NCBI RefSeq assembly: GCF_000381765.1
Contig: NZ_KB907087.1
Location: 1-47,644 of the forward strand
Length of the DNA: 47,644 nt
Source: [Zimmermannella] faecalis ATCC 13722
GTDB taxonomy: Bacteria > Actinomycetota > Actinomycetes > Actinomycetales > Microbacteriaceae
Direction of reading: 5' to 3'
The translations under genes were made by a program, and so were the position numbers. Below the pieces are notes generated by a model that saw only the letters and a program-made list of their open reading frames with translations, was not told the DNA's origin and searched no databases. Shown here in pieces: positions 1 to 21,991 of the stretch (position 1 is the stretch's first letter; every line of letters starts with the position of its first letter).

Positions 1-2223
1 CCGAACGCGGCGTCGCAGGCCTCGGCGCAGGCTGCAGCGAACTCGGCTGCGGACTCCGACTCGGAGGCGTCGGCCTCGACGTCGGCGGACGCCAACGCTG
101 CTGCGGCAGCCGAAGTCGCGGCGAACGCGGACTCGTCGAACGACGCGTCGGCGCAGGCCGCGGCGGACTCAGATGCTGCTGCCGACCCTGACGCGGCTGC
201 TGACCCTGACGCTGCTGCCGACCCTGACGCGGCGGCTGATCCGGATGCGGCGGCTGATCCGGATGCGGCTGCGGACCCGGATGCTGCTGCGGACCCGGAT
301 GCTGCCGCGGATCCTGATGCTGCTGCGGCTTCGGACGCGAACGTGAACGCCTCGGCGTCTGCTTCGGCTTCCGCCAACGCGGATTCGAACGCGAACGCAG
401 CTGCCCAGGCGGCGGCGCAGGCTGCCGCGATGGCAGACGCGGACTCGGTCGCGTCGGCTGCGGCAGACGCGACGGCTCAGGCTGCTGCTGAGGTCGCCGC
501 AACCGCGGACGCCTCGTCGACCGCTTCTGCGGATGCGTCGAGCGACCCGAACGCGGCGTCGCAGGCCTCGGCGCAGGCTGCAGCGAACTCGGCTGCGGAC
601 TCCGACTCGGAGGCGTCGGCCTCGACGTCGGCGGACGCCAATGCGGCCGCGGCAGCCGAAGTTGCCGCGAACGCGGACTCGTCGAACGACGCGTCGGCGC
701 AGGCCGCGGCGGATGCTGACGCAGCTGCCGACCCTGACGCTGCTGCCGACCCTGACGCGGCTGCCGACCCTGACGCGGCTGCCGACCCTGACGCAGCTGC
801 CGATCCCGATGCGTCGGCCGACCCCGACGCGGCCGCCACGGCAGACGCGAACGCGAACGCTTCGGCTTCGGCCTCGGCATCCGCCCAGGCTGACAGCGAC
901 ACCAACGCCGCCGCCCAGGCCGCTGCGGAAGCCGCTGCTCTCGCGGACGCGACCTCGGCCGCATCCGCCTCGGCTGACGCGACCGCGAACGCGGCCGCCC
1001 AGTCGGCAGCGACCGCGGATGCTTCGAGCGCCGCATCGTCGTCGGCCGAAACCGACGCGAACGCTGCGGCAAGCGCGGCGGCGCAGGCCGCGGCAGAGTC
1101 CGACGCCTCGAGCTCGAGCGCCGCGGAAGCTTCGGCTGCCTCGGACGCCGACGTGCAGGCCGACGCAGCTTCGGCAGCAGCCTCGAACGCGGACGCTTCG
1201 ACCGACGCCTCCTCGGCTGCGGCCGCAGACGCGTCGACCGACCCTGACGCGGCGACCGACCCTGACACCTCGGCGGACTCGGACGCATCGGCTGATCCCG
1301 ACCGCGCGCCGGTCGTGATCACCTCGCCTGAAGACGGCGCGGAGCTCGAGGCGGGCGACGTCACGGTCCGCGGTACCGCGGAGCCGGGCGCGACGGTCAC
1401 CGTCACGCTCGACGACGGCCAGCCTGAAGCCGCTGACACCGTGCAGCTGTTCGCCCTGGTCGGCGACGGCATCACGACGACCGCGGCGCCCGACGGCACC
1501 TGGTCGGTGGTCTTCACTGATGTCGAGCCTGGCACCTACGAGGCCTACGCCACCGACGTCTTCTCGGACGACACGACGACCTTCACGATCGTCGCAGCGG
1601 CCACAGACGACGCCGACGCCACAGCCGACCCGGATTCCGACGCGGCGACCGACTCGACGGGCGATGACACCGCCACCGCCGAGAGCGACGCGAGCTCGGA
1701 AGCAACATCGGACTCGGCGAGCTCCGGTGACTCCGACAGTGCAACTCCAGGTGACTCCGATGCGGCAACCTCGGGCGACTCGGATGCGGCGGCCTCGGGT
1801 GACTCGGACACCGCAACTCCAGGTGACTCTGACTCGGCAACGCCGGGCGACTCCGACACCGCAACCTCGGGCGAAACCGCGACCGGCGACAGCTCCGCCA
1901 CCGCGGACACCTCAGCCGATGCCGACAACTCGGCCGCAGCGGATGCCGCGGAGAGCAGCGCGACGAGCGACAGCGCATCCAGCGCCTCGGGTAGCGCAAG
2001 CAGTGCTGCCTCGGGCAGCTCGAGCAGCAGCGCGAGCACCGACACGGCCGCAAACGCTGGCGGATCCGGAAACGCGGCGGCAAACCCCGGAGCGGGCGAT
2101 GACCTCGCCGCGACGGGTGCCGACGGAGCACTTGGTGGTCTCGCAGTCGCCGGGCTGCTGCTCGCGGCCGGCGCCTACCTCTACCTCACGCGACGTTCGG
2201 TCTCCGGTCGCCACGTGAAGTAG
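1..2223 (+). CDS. Ala/Asp/Ser-rich repetitive surface protein with sortase-like tail (5' partial)
   Basis: The reading frame is open from base 1, so the gene starts upstream; the internal GTG at 343 is not a credible start. The protein is almost entirely Ala, Asp, Ser, Asn and Thr. It carries blocks of Ala-Ala-Asp-Pro-Asp repeats (about 180-325 and 715-835) and a long repeat of 182 codons: bases 1-180 recur almost unchanged at 547-726. One folded domain is visible at about 1303-1600, a bacterial Ig-like domain (PVVITSPEDGAELEAGDVTV, later GTWSVVF). A Gly-Asp-Ser-Asp repeat tract (about 1729-1875) and a Ser/Ala stalk follow. The end is LAATG (2104-2118), a hydrophobic helix and a basic tail (RRSVSGRHVK), the layout of a cell-wall sorting signal with Ala where Pro is usual. 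The likely role is a long fibrous wall-anchored adhesin or biofilm protein. No sortase gene lies in the window. Function is inferred from architecture only. Confidence 0.85.
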   Translation, partial: PNAASQASAQAAANSAADSDSEASASTSADANAAAAAEVAANADSSNDASAQAAADSDAAADPDAAADPDAAADPDAAADPDAAADPDAAADPDAAADPDAAADPDAAAASDANVNASASASASANADSNANAAAQAAAQAAAMADADSVASAAADATAQAAAEVAATADASSTASADASSDPNAASQASAQAAANSAADSDSEASASTSADANAAAAAEVAANADSSNDASAQAAADADAAADPDAAADPDAAADPDAAADPDAAADPDASADPDAAATADANANASASASASAQADSDTNAAAQAAAEAAALADATSAASASADATANAAAQSAATADASSAASSSAETDANAAASAAAQAAAESDASSSSAAEASAASDADVQADAASAAASNADASTDASSAAAADASTDPDAATDPDTSADSDASADPDRAPVVITSPEDGAELEAGDVTVRGTAEPGATVTVTLDDGQPEAADTVQLFALVGDGITTTAAPDGTWSVVFTDVEPGTYEAYATDVFSDDTTTFTIVAAATDDADATADPDSDAATDSTGDDTATAESDASSEATSDSASSGDSDSATPGDSDAATSGDSDAAASGDSDTATPGDSDSATPGDSDTATSGETATGDSSATADTSADADNSAAADAAESSATSDSASSASGSASSAASGSSSSSASTDTAANAGGSGNAAANPGAGDDLAATGADGALGGLAVAGLLLAAGAYLYLTRRSVSGRHVK

Positions 2224-2295
2224 TCCACGAGATGGGGTGGGCGGTGCATCCCGCCGCCCGCCTCATTCTCACCCCCGCGAGAGAAACCCCGAGCC

Positions 2296-3063
2296 ATGTC
2301 CGAGCAGCACTCCACTAAGAAACGGTCGCCGATCGTGCGCGTCGTGCTTGTCGTCGCGTCGATGCTCACGGCGTGGCACGTGTTCGCGTCGTTCCTTTGG
2401 ATCGCGCCGACCTCGCCCGCCCGCGAGGTCGTGCCGGGCAACGCGCTCACGAGCTACATGATTCCGTTCTTCGGCCAGTCGTGGAGCGTGTTCGCGCCCG
2501 CCCCGATCAACGGCGACTACGTGTTCAAGGTGCGAGCGCTGGTGCCAGACGACGCCGGCGAACTCGTCGAGACCGAGTGGGTTGATGCGACCGCGGTTGA
2601 GCTGTCGATGCTGCAGTACAACCTGTTCCCGCCGCGGGCGGGCATCCAGTCGTCGCAGGTCGCAAGCGAATACAAGAGCCAGTACGACGCGATCACCGCC
2701 GACCACCAGGTGATCGTGCAGCTCAACTATTTCGAGGACGACTTCGAGCAGCGCCTCGAAGACAAGCTCGACACGTACGGCGAAACGGATCTGGTCGACG
2801 CGTACATGCCTGCCGAGCACCAGGCGACCGCGTACGCGACGCAGGTGGCGCTCGCCGTGTTTGGCGACGACGTCGTGCGCGTGCAGTACGAGGTGACGCG
2901 ACAGAACGTGGTGCCGTTCGAAGACCGCAACGACCCCGACGCTCAGCTGCCGCAGGCGACCGTGCTGACTCCCGGCTGGCGCGGTCTCGTGCGCAACGAG
3001 GGGCAATCCGACGAGGCGTTCGCCGAGGTGTTCCTCGACACGTACGAGGGGATGCAGGAATGA
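2296..3063 (+). CDS. DUF5819 family membrane-anchored protein
   Basis: A 255-residue protein with a single N-terminal membrane helix (about residues 13-33, IVRVVLVVASMLTAWHVFAS), then an extracytoplasmic region with the family signature SYMIPFFGQSWSVFAPAPIN. This matches DUF5819 proteins, whose function is unknown; in actinobacteria they usually sit next to an HTTM-domain gene, as here. The start follows a 72-bp gap after the surface-protein gene. That gap contains a GC hairpin around GGGTGGGCGG/CCGCCGCCC, which may end upstream transcription. The stop overlaps the next ATG by four bases, so the pair is probably translationally coupled and works together at the membrane. Family assignment is from recognisable motif and context; no catalytic residues can be named. 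Confidence 0.8.
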   Translation: MSEQHSTKKRSPIVRVVLVVASMLTAWHVFASFLWIAPTSPAREVVPGNALTSYMIPFFGQSWSVFAPAPINGDYVFKVRALVPDDAGELVETEWVDATAVELSMLQYNLFPPRAGIQSSQVASEYKSQYDAITADHQVIVQLNYFEDDFEQRLEDKLDTYGETDLVDAYMPAEHQATAYATQVALAVFGDDVVRVQYEVTRQNVVPFEDRNDPDAQLPQATVLTPGWRGLVRNEGQSDEAFAEVFLDTYEGMQE

Positions 3064-4271
3064 GCGACTTCACCACGGCCGTGCGGCGGCTCGGCGTCGC
3101 GATTGCTGCGTTCTTCGGCGACGGCGCGCGATCGCTCGCGGGCGGCGCCGGGCGCATCGTCTCGAACGGCTACCGGCTCGCAGAAGACTGGCTGCTCGAC
3201 TCGAAGAAGGCGCGGTACGGACTTGCCGTGACGCGCATCCTGCTTGGCCTTTCGGCCGTTGGCCTGCTGCTGTCGAACTGGTCGACGCGCCTGTATTCGT
3301 TCGGCAGCGGGTCGCTCTGGAACGGCGAGGGAATCTCGGCGAAGAGCGACTTCCCGCACATTTGGCTGTTCAGCGCGTTCCACGCGGCGATGCCGAACGA
3401 CGCCGTCTATACCGCGCTGTACCTCGCGCTGCTGCTGCTCGCGGTGCTGTTCACGCTCGGGTGGCGAACCCGCTTCGTGCATCCGGTGTTCCTCGTGCTC
3501 TGGGTGAGCTTCATCGAGGCGAACGACATGCTCGGTGACCAGGGCGACAACATGTATCGCATCGCCCTGTTCTTCCTGCTCTTCTCGGACTGCGCGGGGC
3601 GTTGGTCGCTTGACGCGCGGCGCCGGGCGAGGGCGGATACGCGGGAGCCGAAGGGCCGGCGGGCTCGGCAACGTCGGCAGAACTGGCAGCAGATTCAGAA
3701 CCTGTTGCACAACCTCGTGCTGGTGGTGCTCACGGCGCAGGTGTCGTTCGTGTACGTGTCGGGCGCCCTCTATAAGGCGGGCGGCGCGCCGTGGCAGCAC
3801 GGCTGGGCCGTGTACGACCCGCTCATGACCGACCGGTTCGGCACGTGGCCGTGGTTGAGCGATCTCGTGACGGCGTGGGGCCCGATCGTGACGCTCGCGG
3901 CGTGGGGATCGATCATTATGCAGCTCTCGTTCCCGTTCATGCTGCTGACGCGGCCGACTCGCATCGTGGGGCTCGCGGCGATTCTCTCGTTCCACGTCGC
4001 GATCGCCGTGCTCATGGGACTGCCGTGGTTCTCGCTGTCGATGATCGCGATCGACTCAATCTTCGTGCGTGACCGCACCTGGTCGGCGATGGCGACCGGG
4101 CTGCGCGACCGGATACGCGGGGCCGGGGAGGTCGCCCGAAGGCGCGTTCCCGAGCCTGGCCGAGACGTTGCCGGCGCTGCGGATGCGGGCGAGGCTGCTC
4201 CGACCTCGACTACCGAGGGCGACGCCGAGCCCGCGGTGGTACGCGAGGACGCGCATCCCGTTTCGGCCTGA
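3060..4271 (+). CDS. HTTM domain (VKGC-like) multi-pass membrane protein
   Basis: A 403-residue membrane protein that begins in the stop codon of the DUF5819 gene (ATGA overlap). After a cytoplasmic N-terminus it has several hydrophobic helices, including TALYLALLLLAVLFTLGW, a helix near FFLLFSDCAGRWS, NLVLVVLTAQVSFVYVSGAL and IVGLAAILSFHVAIAVLMGL. The block YVSGALYKAGGAPWQHGWAVY followed by a Phe-Gly-Thr-Trp-Pro segment is characteristic of HTTM proteins, the bacterial relatives of vitamin-K-dependent gamma-carboxylase. Whether bacterial members carboxylate glutamates is not established. The last ~60 residues are a polar, probably disordered tail. Pairing with DUF5819 is a recurring actinobacterial arrangement. 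Placement between surface-protein genes suggests a role in envelope-protein maturation, which is inference. Confidence 0.8.
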   Translation: MSDFTTAVRRLGVAIAAFFGDGARSLAGGAGRIVSNGYRLAEDWLLDSKKARYGLAVTRILLGLSAVGLLLSNWSTRLYSFGSGSLWNGEGISAKSDFPHIWLFSAFHAAMPNDAVYTALYLALLLLAVLFTLGWRTRFVHPVFLVLWVSFIEANDMLGDQGDNMYRIALFFLLFSDCAGRWSLDARRRARADTREPKGRRARQRRQNWQQIQNLLHNLVLVVLTAQVSFVYVSGALYKAGGAPWQHGWAVYDPLMTDRFGTWPWLSDLVTAWGPIVTLAAWGSIIMQLSFPFMLLTRPTRIVGLAAILSFHVAIAVLMGLPWFSLSMIAIDSIFVRDRTWSAMATGLRDRIRGAGEVARRRVPEPGRDVAGAADAGEAAPTSTTEGDAEPAVVREDAHPVSA

Positions 4272-4329: not shown

Positions 4330-4896
4330 ATGGCAAATTCATCGAAGTCCACCGGTTCGTTGTTCACGAAGGGCCGCGCAATTCTCGCGGGCGGGCTCGT
4401 GCTCGGCGTCGGTGCGGTCGTCACGCTCGCGGCTTGGAATGATTCTGAGTGGGCGCAGGGCAACTTCAAGGCCGGTGAATTCGGTATCGAAGGCTCGGAA
4501 GATGGCACGACGTTCGCGAATCACCCGACCGACGGTCCTGCTGCCACGCTCGACTTCTCGGTGGGCGCCGATAACCTCACACCGGGCGACGTCGTTTACG
4601 CGAACTACGCCGTGCGGTTGAGCCAGACGTCGACGTATGCGGCCGAGGTTGATATCGAATCGCAGCTCGTCAATGAGGATGGACACCTCGCGGTGAGCCA
4701 CGCGTTCGTCGATTCTGCCGCGGGGTGCAGCGCTGCGGCCTTCACGGGCACTGACGACCCCGAGTCGTTCTCCCTCGACGCTCACGACGAAACGCAGAAC
4801 ATCTGCATCCGTGTAACCGCGGGCTCTGACCTCCTGCAGGGTGAAACCGGTACCGTGACCTTTACATTCAACGCAGAGTCGACCACATCGCTCTAG
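4330..4896 (+). CDS. SipW-dependent-type signal peptide protein (TasA/camelysin-like)
   Basis: A 188-residue secreted protein. I start at ATG 4330 because GGGAGGAAACC sits directly upstream; the frame is open further upstream but that part overlaps the HTTM gene. The N-terminus has a basic stretch, a hydrophobic core (AILAGGLVLGVGAVVTLAAW) and the motif AAWNDSEWAQGNFKAGEF. That motif is the hallmark of substrates of SipW-type signal peptidases (TasA/camelysin class). The mature part is a beta-rich domain (LDFSVGADNLTPGDVVYANY) with one Cys pair (GCSAAAF and NICIRV). The next gene, 15 bp on, begins with exactly that kind of signal peptidase, so the pair is a substrate-processor unit. It could form fibres or a matrix component by analogy with TasA. 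The individual function is unknown. Confidence 0.85.
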   Translation: MANSSKSTGSLFTKGRAILAGGLVLGVGAVVTLAAWNDSEWAQGNFKAGEFGIEGSEDGTTFANHPTDGPAATLDFSVGADNLTPGDVVYANYAVRLSQTSTYAAEVDIESQLVNEDGHLAVSHAFVDSAAGCSAAAFTGTDDPESFSLDAHDETQNICIRVTAGSDLLQGETGTVTFTFNAESTTSL

Positions 4897-4911: not shown

Positions 4912-6687
4912 TTGACCGCTTCGCGAACGAGCCGTAGGTTCAGCCGCGCCGTGGGCGAGACGCTGTTGAGCGTGCTCGCCCTCGGCGGGCTGGCCTGCAT
5001 TGTGCTGTTCGTGGCGGCGATGTTGTTCAACGTGTCGGTCATCATGTTCAAGACGGGGTCGATGTCGCCGACGATTCCCGCGGGCTCGGCGGCGCTCGTG
5101 CGCGAGATTCCTGCCTCGGAGGTCGAGGTGGGCGACGTGGTCACGGTCGAGCGGCCGGGCCAGCTCCCGGTCACGCACCGGGTCACGTCGGTCGCGGACG
5201 CCGACGTCGCGAACGCGCGCACCATCACGATGCGCGGTGACGCGAATGTGCAGGACGATCCGAACCCCTACGTCATTGAGACTGTCGACATCGTGATGTT
5301 CTCGGTGCCGGGGCTCGCGAACGTGATCGTCTGGTTCTCGAATCCGCTCGTGCTTGGCGGCATCACGGTTGCCGCTTCGGTGCTCGTGACGTGGGCGTTC
5401 TGGCCGCGGGCGAGGAGCGAAGCCGAGGGTGACGAGGGTGCCGAAGATGCAGAGGTAACCGAGGGCACTGAGGAGCCCGACGCTGCCCCGACCGGCCGTC
5501 GCCGCGGACGCCACGTCGCCGCCATGGTTGCTCTTGCTGGCGGCGCCGGACTGCTCGTTGCGGTCGCGGCGCCGCCGCCGGCGATTGCGGCGGGCGAGTC
5601 GACGACGGTGATCGAGGGCGATGTCATTCGGCTCACGTCGATCGGTGACTTCGCCGCCATGCAGTCGATGCGCCCGGGCGTGCCCGCCTATTGGCAGGTT
5701 GGGGTCGAGGCGGATACGCAGGATCCGGGCACGATCGACGTCACGGCCGAGGCGTCGGGTTCGGCGGAGCTGGGGCTCGACCTCGAGTTTCGCGCCTGCA
5801 CCGTGCAGTGGATCGACGGCGTGTGCTCGGGCGAGGAAGTGGGCGTGAACGCGCCGGCCGCGTCGCTGCTCGGTGCCGACCCGCACCCTTTGCTCACGCT
5901 GCCTGCCGACCAGGCGCGGTGGGTGCTCGTGACCGCGACGATTCCCGAGGATGCGTCGGGTTCGGTGTCGGTGCTGATCCGTGCGACCGGCATGGGCGAC
6001 GACCTCGTCGCGGCGCCCGAGAACCCCCTCACGACGTTGCCCGCGACGGGCGGAACACCGGCATGGATGCTCGGCCTCGGGGCCGTGCTTGTCACGATCG
6101 GCCTCGCACTCGCGGCGCGTGCCCGCCGCCGTCGCGTGGATATTCACTCTCCCCAGCGTCCCGAAGACCCCAAGCTGCGGCTCACCCGAGTGGCCGCCGT
6201 CATCACCGCGGTCGGACTCGGCGCCGGACTGCTTGTTCCAACCCCGCGCGACACCGTCGCCGCCTGGACCGACGCCGAAATCGCCACCGGCACCCTCCAA
6301 GCCGGCACAGTGCCGCGGGTCACCCAGATCCAATGCGAGCAGAGGGAACATTGGGTCCTGCTCTTGCGCTATTACGACGCATATTTGTATTGGCCGGAGC
6401 CGACCCCTCTATTGCCCGGGATGTCAGTGTCGTATCGGGTGAACTTTACAAAGGGCTCCACCACGACTAGCGAGACAACTAGTAGCACTAACTATTTGAT
6501 GTCCGGAAGCGTGCTTGGCGACTTGCTCTCCTTGCTGCTGTCTTCACCAGGGCCAATCACAGTTCGAGTTGAAACAGTGCAAACGGACGTGACATCTAAT
6601 ACCTCTTGGGTTTCCGCCACTTCAGAAACTTCGGTGACGGTTGCTTTCACCGGAAGCCTTGCGGGTGCACACTTCCGCTGTCCGTGA
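4912..6687 (+). CDS. ER-type signal peptidase I fused to two secreted-protein modules
   Basis: TTG start, 591 residues. Residues 1-165 are a SipW/ER-type signal peptidase: membrane helix at 18-45, nucleophile Ser50 in TGSMSPTIP, general-base His89 in LPVTHRV (His replaces the bacterial Lys), Asp110 in MRGDANVQDD, and a second helix at 145-164. An acidic linker (168-190) and basic RRRGR lead to an internal signal-like helix (201-227, ending AIAAGE) and a beta-rich domain with a Cys pair (C296, C305). This ends in a sorting signal: LPATG at 376-380, a helix, then RARRRR. A third hydrophobic segment (427-445) precedes AAWTDAEIATGTLQAGTV, a SipW-substrate motif, and a last ~125-residue Ser/Thr-rich domain. 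No stop or frameshift separates the modules. The last ~115 codons are AT-richer than the rest. It probably processes itself and the neighbour at 4330; this is inference. Confidence 0.8.
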   Translation: MTASRTSRRFSRAVGETLLSVLALGGLACIVLFVAAMLFNVSVIMFKTGSMSPTIPAGSAALVREIPASEVEVGDVVTVERPGQLPVTHRVTSVADADVANARTITMRGDANVQDDPNPYVIETVDIVMFSVPGLANVIVWFSNPLVLGGITVAASVLVTWAFWPRARSEAEGDEGAEDAEVTEGTEEPDAAPTGRRRGRHVAAMVALAGGAGLLVAVAAPPPAIAAGESTTVIEGDVIRLTSIGDFAAMQSMRPGVPAYWQVGVEADTQDPGTIDVTAEASGSAELGLDLEFRACTVQWIDGVCSGEEVGVNAPAASLLGADPHPLLTLPADQARWVLVTATIPEDASGSVSVLIRATGMGDDLVAAPENPLTTLPATGGTPAWMLGLGAVLVTIGLALAARARRRRVDIHSPQRPEDPKLRLTRVAAVITAVGLGAGLLVPTPRDTVAAWTDAEIATGTLQAGTVPRVTQIQCEQREHWVLLLRYYDAYLYWPEPTPLLPGMSVSYRVNFTKGSTTTSETTSSTNYLMSGSVLGDLLSLLLSSPGPITVRVETVQTDVTSNTSWVSATSETSVTVAFTGSLAGAHFRCP

Positions 6688-6833
6688 GAGATCCGCGCGT
6701 CTAATTCTCTGTCCCACCGCAACCAGCGCTTCGGCGAGAACCGAGGCGGGAGACCCAAGCGGGCGAGGAGGAGTGACCGGGGGTGTCGGGGTGCGAACGC
6801 GCGGCTTCGGAAATGGCCGGGGCCGGCACACCC

Positions 6834-20622: not shown

Positions 20623-21288
20623 CTAGTTCGTCGACGGACCAGGCTGTTCGGCCTCGCCGCTGCCCGGCGCCTCGGCGTCGCTACCGTCGTCGCCGTCCTC
20701 CGGCGGGGTGCTCGGGTCTTCGGTGTCGTCGCCGCTGCCACCGTCTCCGGGCGTCGACTCACTCGGATCGGGGTCGGGCTCCGTCGGATCCGGATCGCTC
20801 GGCGCCGGATCGTTCGTCTCGACCGGCGCGGGCGCGACGTTCCCCGACCCATCCGAGTCGCTAGGACCGCCGGAACCACCCGAGCCACCAGACCCACCAG
20901 TCCCATCCGAAGACCCACCGGTGTCACCCTCGTTCGGCTCGGTGTCGGGCGCGGGCGGCATCGACTCGGTCGGCACGGGCGTGCGCGTTGCCGGGCTCGA
21001 GGGCGTCGGCGTGGGCGTCGACGTCTTGGTCGGGTCGACGGTCGCGGTTGCAGATGAGGTCGGCCCGTCGGTGGCGACGGGCAGGTCGGATCCGCGCGGC
21101 AGCAGCATCGCGACCGCGCCGCCGGCGACCGCAAGGGCGACCACCGTGATGCCCACAACAACGAGGTTTCGGGGCTGCTTGAGCCACGCGACGACGCTCG
21201 CGAACCAGCCGGGTTCGGCCTCTTCGAGCAGACCGCCGTAGTCGTTGAGGGGTTGGGTCACGGGGAAGTAGCCATTCTCTCGGGGCAC
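20623..21288 (-). CDS. Single-pass membrane protein with long disordered extracellular tail
   Basis: A 221-residue protein. The first ~34 residues are cytoplasmic and end KQPRN; one membrane helix covers about 35-58 (LVVVGITVVALAVAGGAVAM). The rest is a Ser/Thr/Pro/Asp/Gly tail with runs such as GGSGGSGGSGG and DPDPTEPDPDPS. No enzymatic motif. The tail could be O-glycosylated or span the wall. It is convergent with DUF3180 and divergent from the PH-domain genes, interrupting the otherwise plus-strand cluster. The region before its start contains a clear dyad (21307-21333). I do not recognise a named family. Confidence 0.75.
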   Translation of the reverse strand: MPRENGYFPVTQPLNDYGGLLEEAEPGWFASVVAWLKQPRNLVVVGITVVALAVAGGAVAMLLPRGSDLPVATDGPTSSATATVDPTKTSTPTPTPSSPATRTPVPTESMPPAPDTEPNEGDTGGSSDGTGGSGGSGGSGGPSDSDGSGNVAPAPVETNDPAPSDPDPTEPDPDPSESTPGDGGSGDDTEDPSTPPEDGDDGSDAEAPGSGEAEQPGPSTN

Positions 21289-21306
21289 GCAGGCGCGTAT
21301 TCACTG

Positions 21307-21333
21307 CATTATCGCAAGAATAGTGCGGTAATG
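21307..21333. promoter_or_regulatory. Operator-like dyad CATTAYCGCA-N7-TGCGGTAATG
   Basis: Ten-base arms (one mismatch) around a 7-base spacer, 19 bases upstream of the minus-strand membrane-protein gene, in the 220-bp divergent region it shares with the PH-domain operon. Size and position suit a dimeric repressor. Confidence 0.45.
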
Positions 21334-21508
21334 AGGCCCGCCTGACCTCATCCGTGTTAATTCCACACGAGTCACAGCGGCAACACCAGACCCAAGTTCG
21401 ATCGCCGTCACCCCGCGGGCGGATGTCGTTCGCTCGGTGCTGTCGCCCGGTTAGGCCGGGTCGGTAGGGTTGTGGGCGCAAATCAGCCCGTAGCTCGAGA
21501 GGCACCTG

Positions 21509-21991
21509 ATGCAATACCCCGACAAGCCCGAGATCGAGTGGCGACGGATCTCGCCGAAGCTCGCCTTCCGCACCCTCGTGGGAGCCATCATCTGGACGGT
21601 GATTTTTCTCGCGGTGACGATCGGGCTGACGTTCATTCCGCATCCGTTCCCGTGGTGGCTGATCGGCGCGGTGATCACGTTCCTGTGCGCCATCGAGATT
21701 CCGATGTCGTTTATTCGCGTGCGCAGCATCGGCTACGCGCTGCGACAGGATGACCTCGTCTTCAAGCGCGGCGTCATCGCGCGGCGCCTCGTCGCCGTGC
21801 CGTACGGCCGCCTGCAGGTGATCGACGTGAGCCGCGGGCTGCTCGACCGGATGCTCGGCATCGCGTCGCTCACGACCGTCACGGCCGCCGCGTCGACGAA
21901 CGTGAGCATCCCCGGCCTCACGCCCGACGAGGCTGACCAGCTGCGCGACCACCTCATTCGCGTCGCCGAGACCCGACGGGCTGGTCTGTAA
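21509..21991 (+). CDS. Bacterial PH-domain (bPH2, YdbS-like) membrane protein
   Basis: A 160-residue protein with two membrane helices (about 22-44 and 49-66) and a C-terminal bPH2 domain (YALRQDDLVFKRGVIARRLV, VPYGRLQVIDVSRGLLDRML, TVTAAASTNVSIPGLTPDEA). These match the YdbS half of the YdbS/YdbT pair. GAGAGG lies upstream of the ATG. Its stop overlaps the next gene's ATG by one base. In Bacillus the homologous pair is linked to resistance to peptide antibiotics or envelope stress; the molecular role is not known. Confidence 0.88.
   Translation: MQYPDKPEIEWRRISPKLAFRTLVGAIIWTVIFLAVTIGLTFIPHPFPWWLIGAVITFLCAIEIPMSFIRVRSIGYALRQDDLVFKRGVIARRLVAVPYGRLQVIDVSRGLLDRMLGIASLTTVTAAASTNVSIPGLTPDEADQLRDHLIRVAETRRAGL

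Follow-up and report, generated by a model that had tools for sequence, protein, structure and literature searches.

The window analysed here, a stretch of 47,644 nucleotides (nt) from [Zimmermannella] faecalis ATCC 13722 (contig NZ_KB907087.1), contains at positions 4912-6687 of the forward strand a single open reading frame (ORF) in which an endoplasmic reticulum (ER)/SipW-type signal peptidase (M1) is followed by a domain with a sortase-type sorting signal (M2) and by a further exported domain behind a SipW-like signal (M3, also called D). An initial annotation of this DNA had described the locus as one uninterrupted frame with the layout of a secretory polyprotein and a sortase-like site in its middle. 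The sequence and the ORF list agree with the first part of this description, as no stop codon interrupts the 591 codons from the TTG at 4912 onward, and the frame is confirmed as real and unusual; the second part is supported as a layout. The account towards which we lean is that the frame yields one membrane precursor with three exported domains, which would be cut by a general signal peptidase, by a sortase, and by its own built-in SipW-type peptidase. A polyprotein is plausible, with the three-part fusion known from one genome.

Layout of the 591-codon frame

The features of the locus are as follows.

4912-6687, forward strand: three-module frame, TTG start, 591 amino acids (aa)
4912-5421, forward strand: M1, ER/SipW-type signal peptidase, residues 1-170, with helices at 18-34 and 146-162 (TIGR02228, PF10502; Ser50, His89, Asp110)
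5422-5589, forward strand: linker, first acidic and then basic, and an internal signal-like helix (202-218) with an Ala-X-Ala end (AIA, 224-226)
5590-6036, forward strand: M2 domain, predicted immunoglobulin (Ig)-like beta sandwich (AlphaFold2, Foldseek)
6037-6135, forward strand: sortase-type sorting signal of M2, LPATG, helix 386-402 and RARRRR (TIGR01167, sequence)
6136-6267, forward strand: M2-to-D junction and SipW-like D signal (helix 427-443, DTVA/AW; TIGR04088 at 18.4 bits, cut-off 19)
6268-6684, forward strand: M3/D domain, predicted FN3-like beta sandwich, with guanine plus cytosine (G+C) content below the surroundings from about 6320 (AlphaFold2, Foldseek, composition)
4330-4896, forward strand: gene A, stand-alone protein with a SipW-type signal (TIGR04088), with ggagg (Shine-Dalgarno-like) before its ATG at 4330

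The TTG at 4912 lies 15 nt past the TAG of gene A (4894-4896) and in the same reading frame as gene A; a Shine-Dalgarno-like motif was looked for upstream of this TTG and none was found. Within the protein, hydrophobic stretches occur at residues 18-34, 146-162, 202-218, 386-402, and 427-443, with LPATG at 376-380, RARRRR at 403-408, and AAWTDAE at 450-456. Judged by hydrophobicity and basic residues alone, such a protein would cross the membrane five times and have all three domains outside. A weaker hydrophobic stretch (127-143) just ahead of 146-162 is, by assumption, counted as part of the surface of the peptidase itself.

In ER/SipW-type class I peptidases an Asp accompanies the Ser-His pair. 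M1 has this Ser-His(-Asp) arrangement: Ser50, His89, and Asp110 are at the positions for which the initial annotation had claimed an ER/SipW-type peptidase, and they are Ser, His, and Asp in all 113 aligned M1 stretches. M1 matched TIGR02228 with an E value of 6.9e-13 and 48.8 bits, which is below the cut-off of 51.85, and PF10502 with 22.9 bits at a cut-off of 22.9, while the match to NF046067 (SipW of bacilli) reached 30 bits against a cut-off of 190. By sequence, M1 also resembles SEC11C/SEC11A (E 0.007 to 0.03). In this class the Ser-His pair replaces Ser-Lys (PMC10269814). M1 is best annotated as a putative ER/SipW-type signal peptidase, predicted to cleave signals with an aromatic residue at P2', and signals of this kind adjoin it.

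M2 begins behind an internal signal-like helix and ends in LPATG, a helix, and RARRRR, all of which were found where they had been placed initially. It thus has the LPXTG motif, hydrophobic helix, and basic tail of a sortase substrate, and the T and G of the motif are kept in at least 90% of 54 M2 rows. Against TIGR01167 (cut-off 15.9), M2 scored 18.3 bits when scanned alone and 14.8 bits within the whole protein. We regard M2 as a putative LPXTG-type sortase substrate and infer wall attachment from the sorting signal. The AlphaFold2 prediction for the M2 domain is an Ig-like beta sandwich, with a mean predicted local distance difference test score (pLDDT) of 89.6 and a predicted template-modelling (TM) score (pTM) of 0.84. 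Its top Foldseek matches include gamma-adaptin ear domains, a beta-N-acetylgalactosaminidase, and FnBPA; the match to the TasA fibre 8aur_A is weak (rank 35, E 0.011, TM 0.48).

The D domain is predicted to form an FN3-like sandwich (mean pLDDT 87.4, pTM 0.74), for which Foldseek ranked a phage T1 tail-tip protein first, ahead of FN3 or cytokine-receptor domains. For both M2 and D, the matches between these predicted folds and known structures appear too weak to name a family. A Pfam scan of one M2 piece and three D pieces returned nothing, and sequence profiles of M2, D, and gene A run against PDB gave no convincing relative, with TasA not matched. Whether M2 might be a diverged copy from the SipW-substrate family was tested by profile-profile comparison; at a probability of 1.2%, this reading was rejected at the sequence level.

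The second internal signal, described initially as being of SipW-substrate type, does look SipW-like, though it scored 18.4 bits against TIGR04088, whose cut-off is 19; shorter pieces scored 15.5 and 17.1 bits, and the curated cut-off was not reached. Among D rows, 9/63 matched this model at E 0.1 or better. The window's D signal thus resembles the SipW type, with borderline membership of TIGR04088. Gene A, which had been claimed as a stand-alone SipW-type substrate just upstream, is supported as one by the same model, at 38.8 bits and so over the cut-off of 19, and all 31 aligned A proteins matched at E 0.01 or better. No assignment of gene A to TasA/camelysin (PF12389) was obtained: one of the 31 A rows matched at E 0.017, and it was not the window's. 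SipW-type signals at E 1 or better occur at only two places in the genome, gene A and the window's D.

Conservation and recurrent fusion in relatives

We examined 110 loci, namely 30 plus the best 80 of 116 by likeness to the window protein, which become 108 when two duplicates (L044 and L054) are left out. In relatives, mostly Micrococcales, the usual order is A - B - M1 - M2 - D on one strand, where A, B, and D bear SipW-type signals; gene B is missing at the window locus. Because the same module order is conserved across many genera, the layout of the frame is more than chance. In 47 of the 108 loci, the window's among them, a single frame encodes both M1 and M2; in 28 the two are separate, and a downstream M2 was not found in the other 33, where contig ends truncate some of the loci. 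Genera with fused M1-M2 include Leucobacter, Plantibacter, Mycetocola, Brevibacterium, Paeniglutamicibacter, and part of Microbacterium, and in RefSeq one fused relative carries only the name 'signal peptidase I'. On a tree of M1 the fusion states are clustered, with 7 changes for fused against separate and 13 for fused against all others, at least 3 of the latter forced by well supported branches. This was a quick tree in which 42 of the 105 inner branches were drawn open for weak support, and since the set was also chosen by likeness, the number of fusion events is rough.

The junction between M2 and D could be tabulated in 70 rows (including the duplicates L044 and L054 and the doubtful L019). 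In 59 of these the M2 stop and the D start overlap by 4 nt (ATGA, GTGA, or TTGA), in one D follows in the same frame behind a stop, nine are arranged otherwise, and the window alone continues in-frame without a stop. Put differently, D is in another frame in 68 of the 69 other rows that hold M2 and D, and behind a stop in the last. The whole 591-aa protein had a single match in its own genome, this frame itself, and a plasmid search for a full three-module relative returned 6 records, of which 0 covered 80%. Of the ten other genomes of the genus, nine gave no match to the protein and one (G003) matched residues 7-180 alone.

A frame joining M1 to D without M2 was found in 7 of 127 loci (L019, L101, L123, L130, L131, L132, and L133), 17 of the 127 having been added for holding D. 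These seven span at least five genera, and the D matches in L130-L133 are weaker than the rest (E 3.8e-7 to 7.7e-6). A less biased sample took 150 genomes of the family, the window's own among them, and found D in 26; in six of these, D and the peptidase form one frame that lacks M2, and in one, the window's, the frame includes M2 as well. The M1-D fusions make more than one origin of peptidase-substrate fusion probable. The initial annotation would have fallen if homologues were always split, and this is not so, with 47/108 M1-M2 fusions and seven further M1-D frames; it also proposed a search for conservation of the three-module order, and the order is kept in many genera, the full fused frame in none of the other rows with M2 and D. 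Read from these comparisons, the locus is a conserved operon that is fused partly in many relatives and fully in this genome alone among those examined. Operons of SipW with its substrates are known, and the M1-M2-D fusion would be a new form of such an operon.

Some relatives hold more than one peptidase copy. Arthrobacter crystallopoietes BAB-32 has three SipW-type peptidase frames in 6.5 kb (L059:766-7269), the middle one followed in-frame by a signal-like helix and a secreted domain; the second peptidase copy there (2040-3284) looks like an M1-D fusion that the D model did not reach. Neighbouring peptidase-M2 copies are present at G048:C18:17334-18533 and 20652-21716 (the first copy is in L003), with two D matches beside them. 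WP_160679752.1 (615 aa, 'signal peptidase I', L134:2344-4191, on a Pseudarthrobacter plasmid) looks like a B-peptidase-M2 fusion and was not counted, as the upstream fusion is doubtful because the B end departs from its relatives near a run of G.

Signal types and predicted processing

An aromatic residue right after two small residues was present in 174/175 A and B signals and in 79/80 D signals, counts that are partly circular because the aromatic residue is built into the family model used to collect the rows. The M2 signal region, taken widely, contains Ala-X-Ala in 45/47 fused and 25/28 separate copies, and an aromatic residue stands at P2' of the last such motif in 1/70, so the SipW-type pattern was not found in M2 signals as a group. 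The initial annotation had called both exported modules probable substrates of the fused peptidase; this fits M3, and it does not fit M2, whose signal is of the ordinary Ala-X-Ala kind. In Bacillus subtilis TasA, the aromatic P2', with other residues around the site, hinders LepB, and SipW cuts (PMC10269814). By analogy, M2 would be cut by the general peptidase and A, B, and D by the SipW-type enzyme. Besides M1, the genome encodes one other class I signal peptidase and two sortases, of class C and class E.

Combining these elements, the 591-aa frame would be made as a polytopic membrane precursor with its N-terminus inside and, most simply, five passes. Fused frames fit one membrane protein whose M2 part would open with an internal signal: they keep a charged linker and a helix between M1 and M2, with a net positive charge ahead of the helix in 41/47. 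The general signal peptidase (LepB-like, contig C8) would cut after the AIA of the M2 signal, and a sortase would cut LPAT/G and join M2 to the wall. The built-in SipW-type peptidase, acting in cis or from a neighbouring copy, would cut at DTVA/AW and thereby free D, and would also process gene A in trans. M2 might then be anchored in the wall and partner the A and D surface proteins there, a role that loosely recalls TapA of tapA-sipW-tasA.

Several points weigh against this account. The full M1-M2-D frame was found in one genome only, and since the loci were picked by likeness to the window protein, the fused fraction reported above is not a census. The five-pass topology would fail if the hydrophobic stretch 127-143 spans the membrane. 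A TTG start without a Shine-Dalgarno-like motif, together with the missing gene B, could be decay, and weak internal start sites persist in 12 of 49 fused rows. The suggested wall-partner role of M2 draws on only the sortase signal and a weak fold match. Finally, Ala-X-Ala directly after the helix was counted in 41/47 fused M2 copies against a shuffle mean of 35.3 and a maximum of 42 (1000 shuffles). Stand-alone M2 gave 25/31 against a mean of 20.8 and a maximum of 26; the test is thus weak even where a cut is expected, and the excess may be taken as weak support for a cut at M2.

That modest excess, and the wide spread of peptidase-M2 fusion, would also suit a chain that stays uncut at the M2 signal. 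In such a chain M2 would be an accessory domain of the peptidase, and sorting at LPATG would leave the peptidase anchored to the wall close to where export takes place. We consider this unlikely, although the least unlikely of the alternatives, given that in 28/108 loci the same M2 is encoded on its own as a secreted protein behind an ordinary signal and that fused M2 copies retain a signal-like n-region and helix.

Origin and reality of the M2-D junction

The third-position G+C of the window's D minus that of M1 is -0.34, the largest drop among 83 rows, and the fall begins at about 6320, just past the D signal. The D domain may have been exchanged. We would like to note that at 6320-6690 the G+C content is 0.43-0.58 per 60 bases against 0.65 for the window, a depression confined to the mature D domain, and that the D domains of three other loci (L009, L102, and L065) have drops of like size, as if D were often exchanged.

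This drop would also suit a recent and accidental joining of D, at a locus that is losing its function in this genome. The occurrence of the three-part frame in this genome only, the absence of gene B, the TTG start without a Shine-Dalgarno-like motif, and the failure of nine of ten other genomes of the genus to match the protein (with residues 7-180 alone in G003) all point the same way. However, the frame retains every catalytic residue and has intact sorting and SipW-like signals, the D fold is predicted with good confidence, and peptidase-D fusions exist elsewhere, so that we hold accidental fusion to be doubtful and somewhat more so than the uncut chain.

We also considered whether the modules are made as separate proteins by initiation at internal start codons (the GTG at 6136 in the case of D), so that the fused frame would be only apparent. 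Ahead of the M2 signal, a start codon with a Shine-Dalgarno-like match of at least 5 was present in 3/49 fused rows (2/49 when only ATG and GTG are allowed) versus 14/33 separate rows; with a match of at least 4 the counts are 12/49 and 24/33. These rows include the duplicates L044 and L054 among the fused and weak or doubled M2 rows (L019, L026, L040, and L103) among the separate, and the Fisher p values of 2.4e-5 (2 vs 14) and 3.0e-5 (12 vs 24) are uncorrected for kinship. The window itself has one weak M2 start candidate, a GTG 68 residues ahead of the M2 domain. Separate translation would suit the weak starts in the fused rows (an ATG ahead of M2 in L085, for example), the 4-nt overlaps by which relatives mostly couple M2 and D, and the in-frame GTG 6136, which would give D an n-region of usual length (GTG 6190 would leave none). 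In contrast, no Shine-Dalgarno-like motif was seen ahead of GTG 6136, strong internal starts are rare in fused loci, and the window's M2 lacks a stop of its own, so its translation runs into D. Separate translation is accordingly improbable.

That a sequencing or assembly error joined M2 and D is hardly credible, even with one draft genome and no second strain seen, since both other forward frames are open near the junction (stop-free at 5975-6440 and from 5901, where the scan started, to 6468), a single insertion or deletion would leave M2 without a stop until at least 6440 and give no M2-D overlap like that of the relatives, and a lone substitution could supply a stop and not an overlap.

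Neighbouring genes

Directly upstream of gene A and on the same strand, 2296-4271 holds a DUF5819 protein gene overlapping a gene for an HTTM/SdpB-like membrane protein. By the left edge of the window, 1-2223 is a long, repetitive frame rich in Ala, Ser, and Asp that ends in an LAATG-like motif, a helix, and a basic tail; it looks like a sortase-type surface protein, and its NCBIfam matches are weak. Elsewhere in the genome (L111, contig C2), the class C sortase adjoins a pilin-like frame ending in LPMTG, probably a separate sortase pilus locus.

Implications and comparison with known systems

Signal peptidases are usually viewed as separate enzymes that act on passing precursors. If the recurrent fusion of enzyme and substrate is true, it would make cleavage of a signal in cis open to study, would hold enzyme and substrate at a 1:1 ratio, and would illustrate how overlapping genes could become a bacterial polyprotein; the fused and split versions in sister genera form a natural set for the effects of fusion. 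As a tentative generalization, which we think possible and would not call probable, actinobacteria may have repeatedly turned a translationally coupled operon of peptidase, wall protein, and SipW substrate into polyproteins with their own peptidase, here in complete form with three proteases and a substrate cut in cis.

No published account of a peptidase-substrate fusion was found in the literature searched, which left most subscription journals outside it. Cleavage of a bacterial precursor at an internal signal, following export of the chain, is known for FbcH, the cytochrome b/c1 precursor, which, unlike the window frame, is not known to carry a peptidase of its own. TIGR04088 proteins stand beside 'signal peptidase I' in actinobacteria, and gene A belongs to this family; the family describes substrate signals, and fusion to the peptidase is outside its description. 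The Pseudarthrobacter plasmid NZ_CP047900 resembles the window locus in gene order and annotation.

The nearest relatives among described systems are tapA-sipW-tasA of B. subtilis and sipW-tasA/calY of Bacillus cereus; an aromatic residue closely follows the cleavage site of TasA, as it would in the D and A signals of the window (PMC13082335, PMC10269814). The division of labour between LepB and SipW in B. subtilis is the same split as proposed here between M2 and A/B/D (PMC10269814), and the B. cereus system has been called sortase-independent (PMC13082335). Both differ from the window frame in that peptidase and substrates are separate proteins. In the sipW-bsaA operon of Clostridium perfringens, export of the co-encoded matrix protein needs SipW, a nearby sortase gene is dispensable for its polymers, and the authors predicted no LPXTG in BsaA (PMC7395162). 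There too the peptidase and its substrate are encoded by separate genes, unlike the single frame described here.
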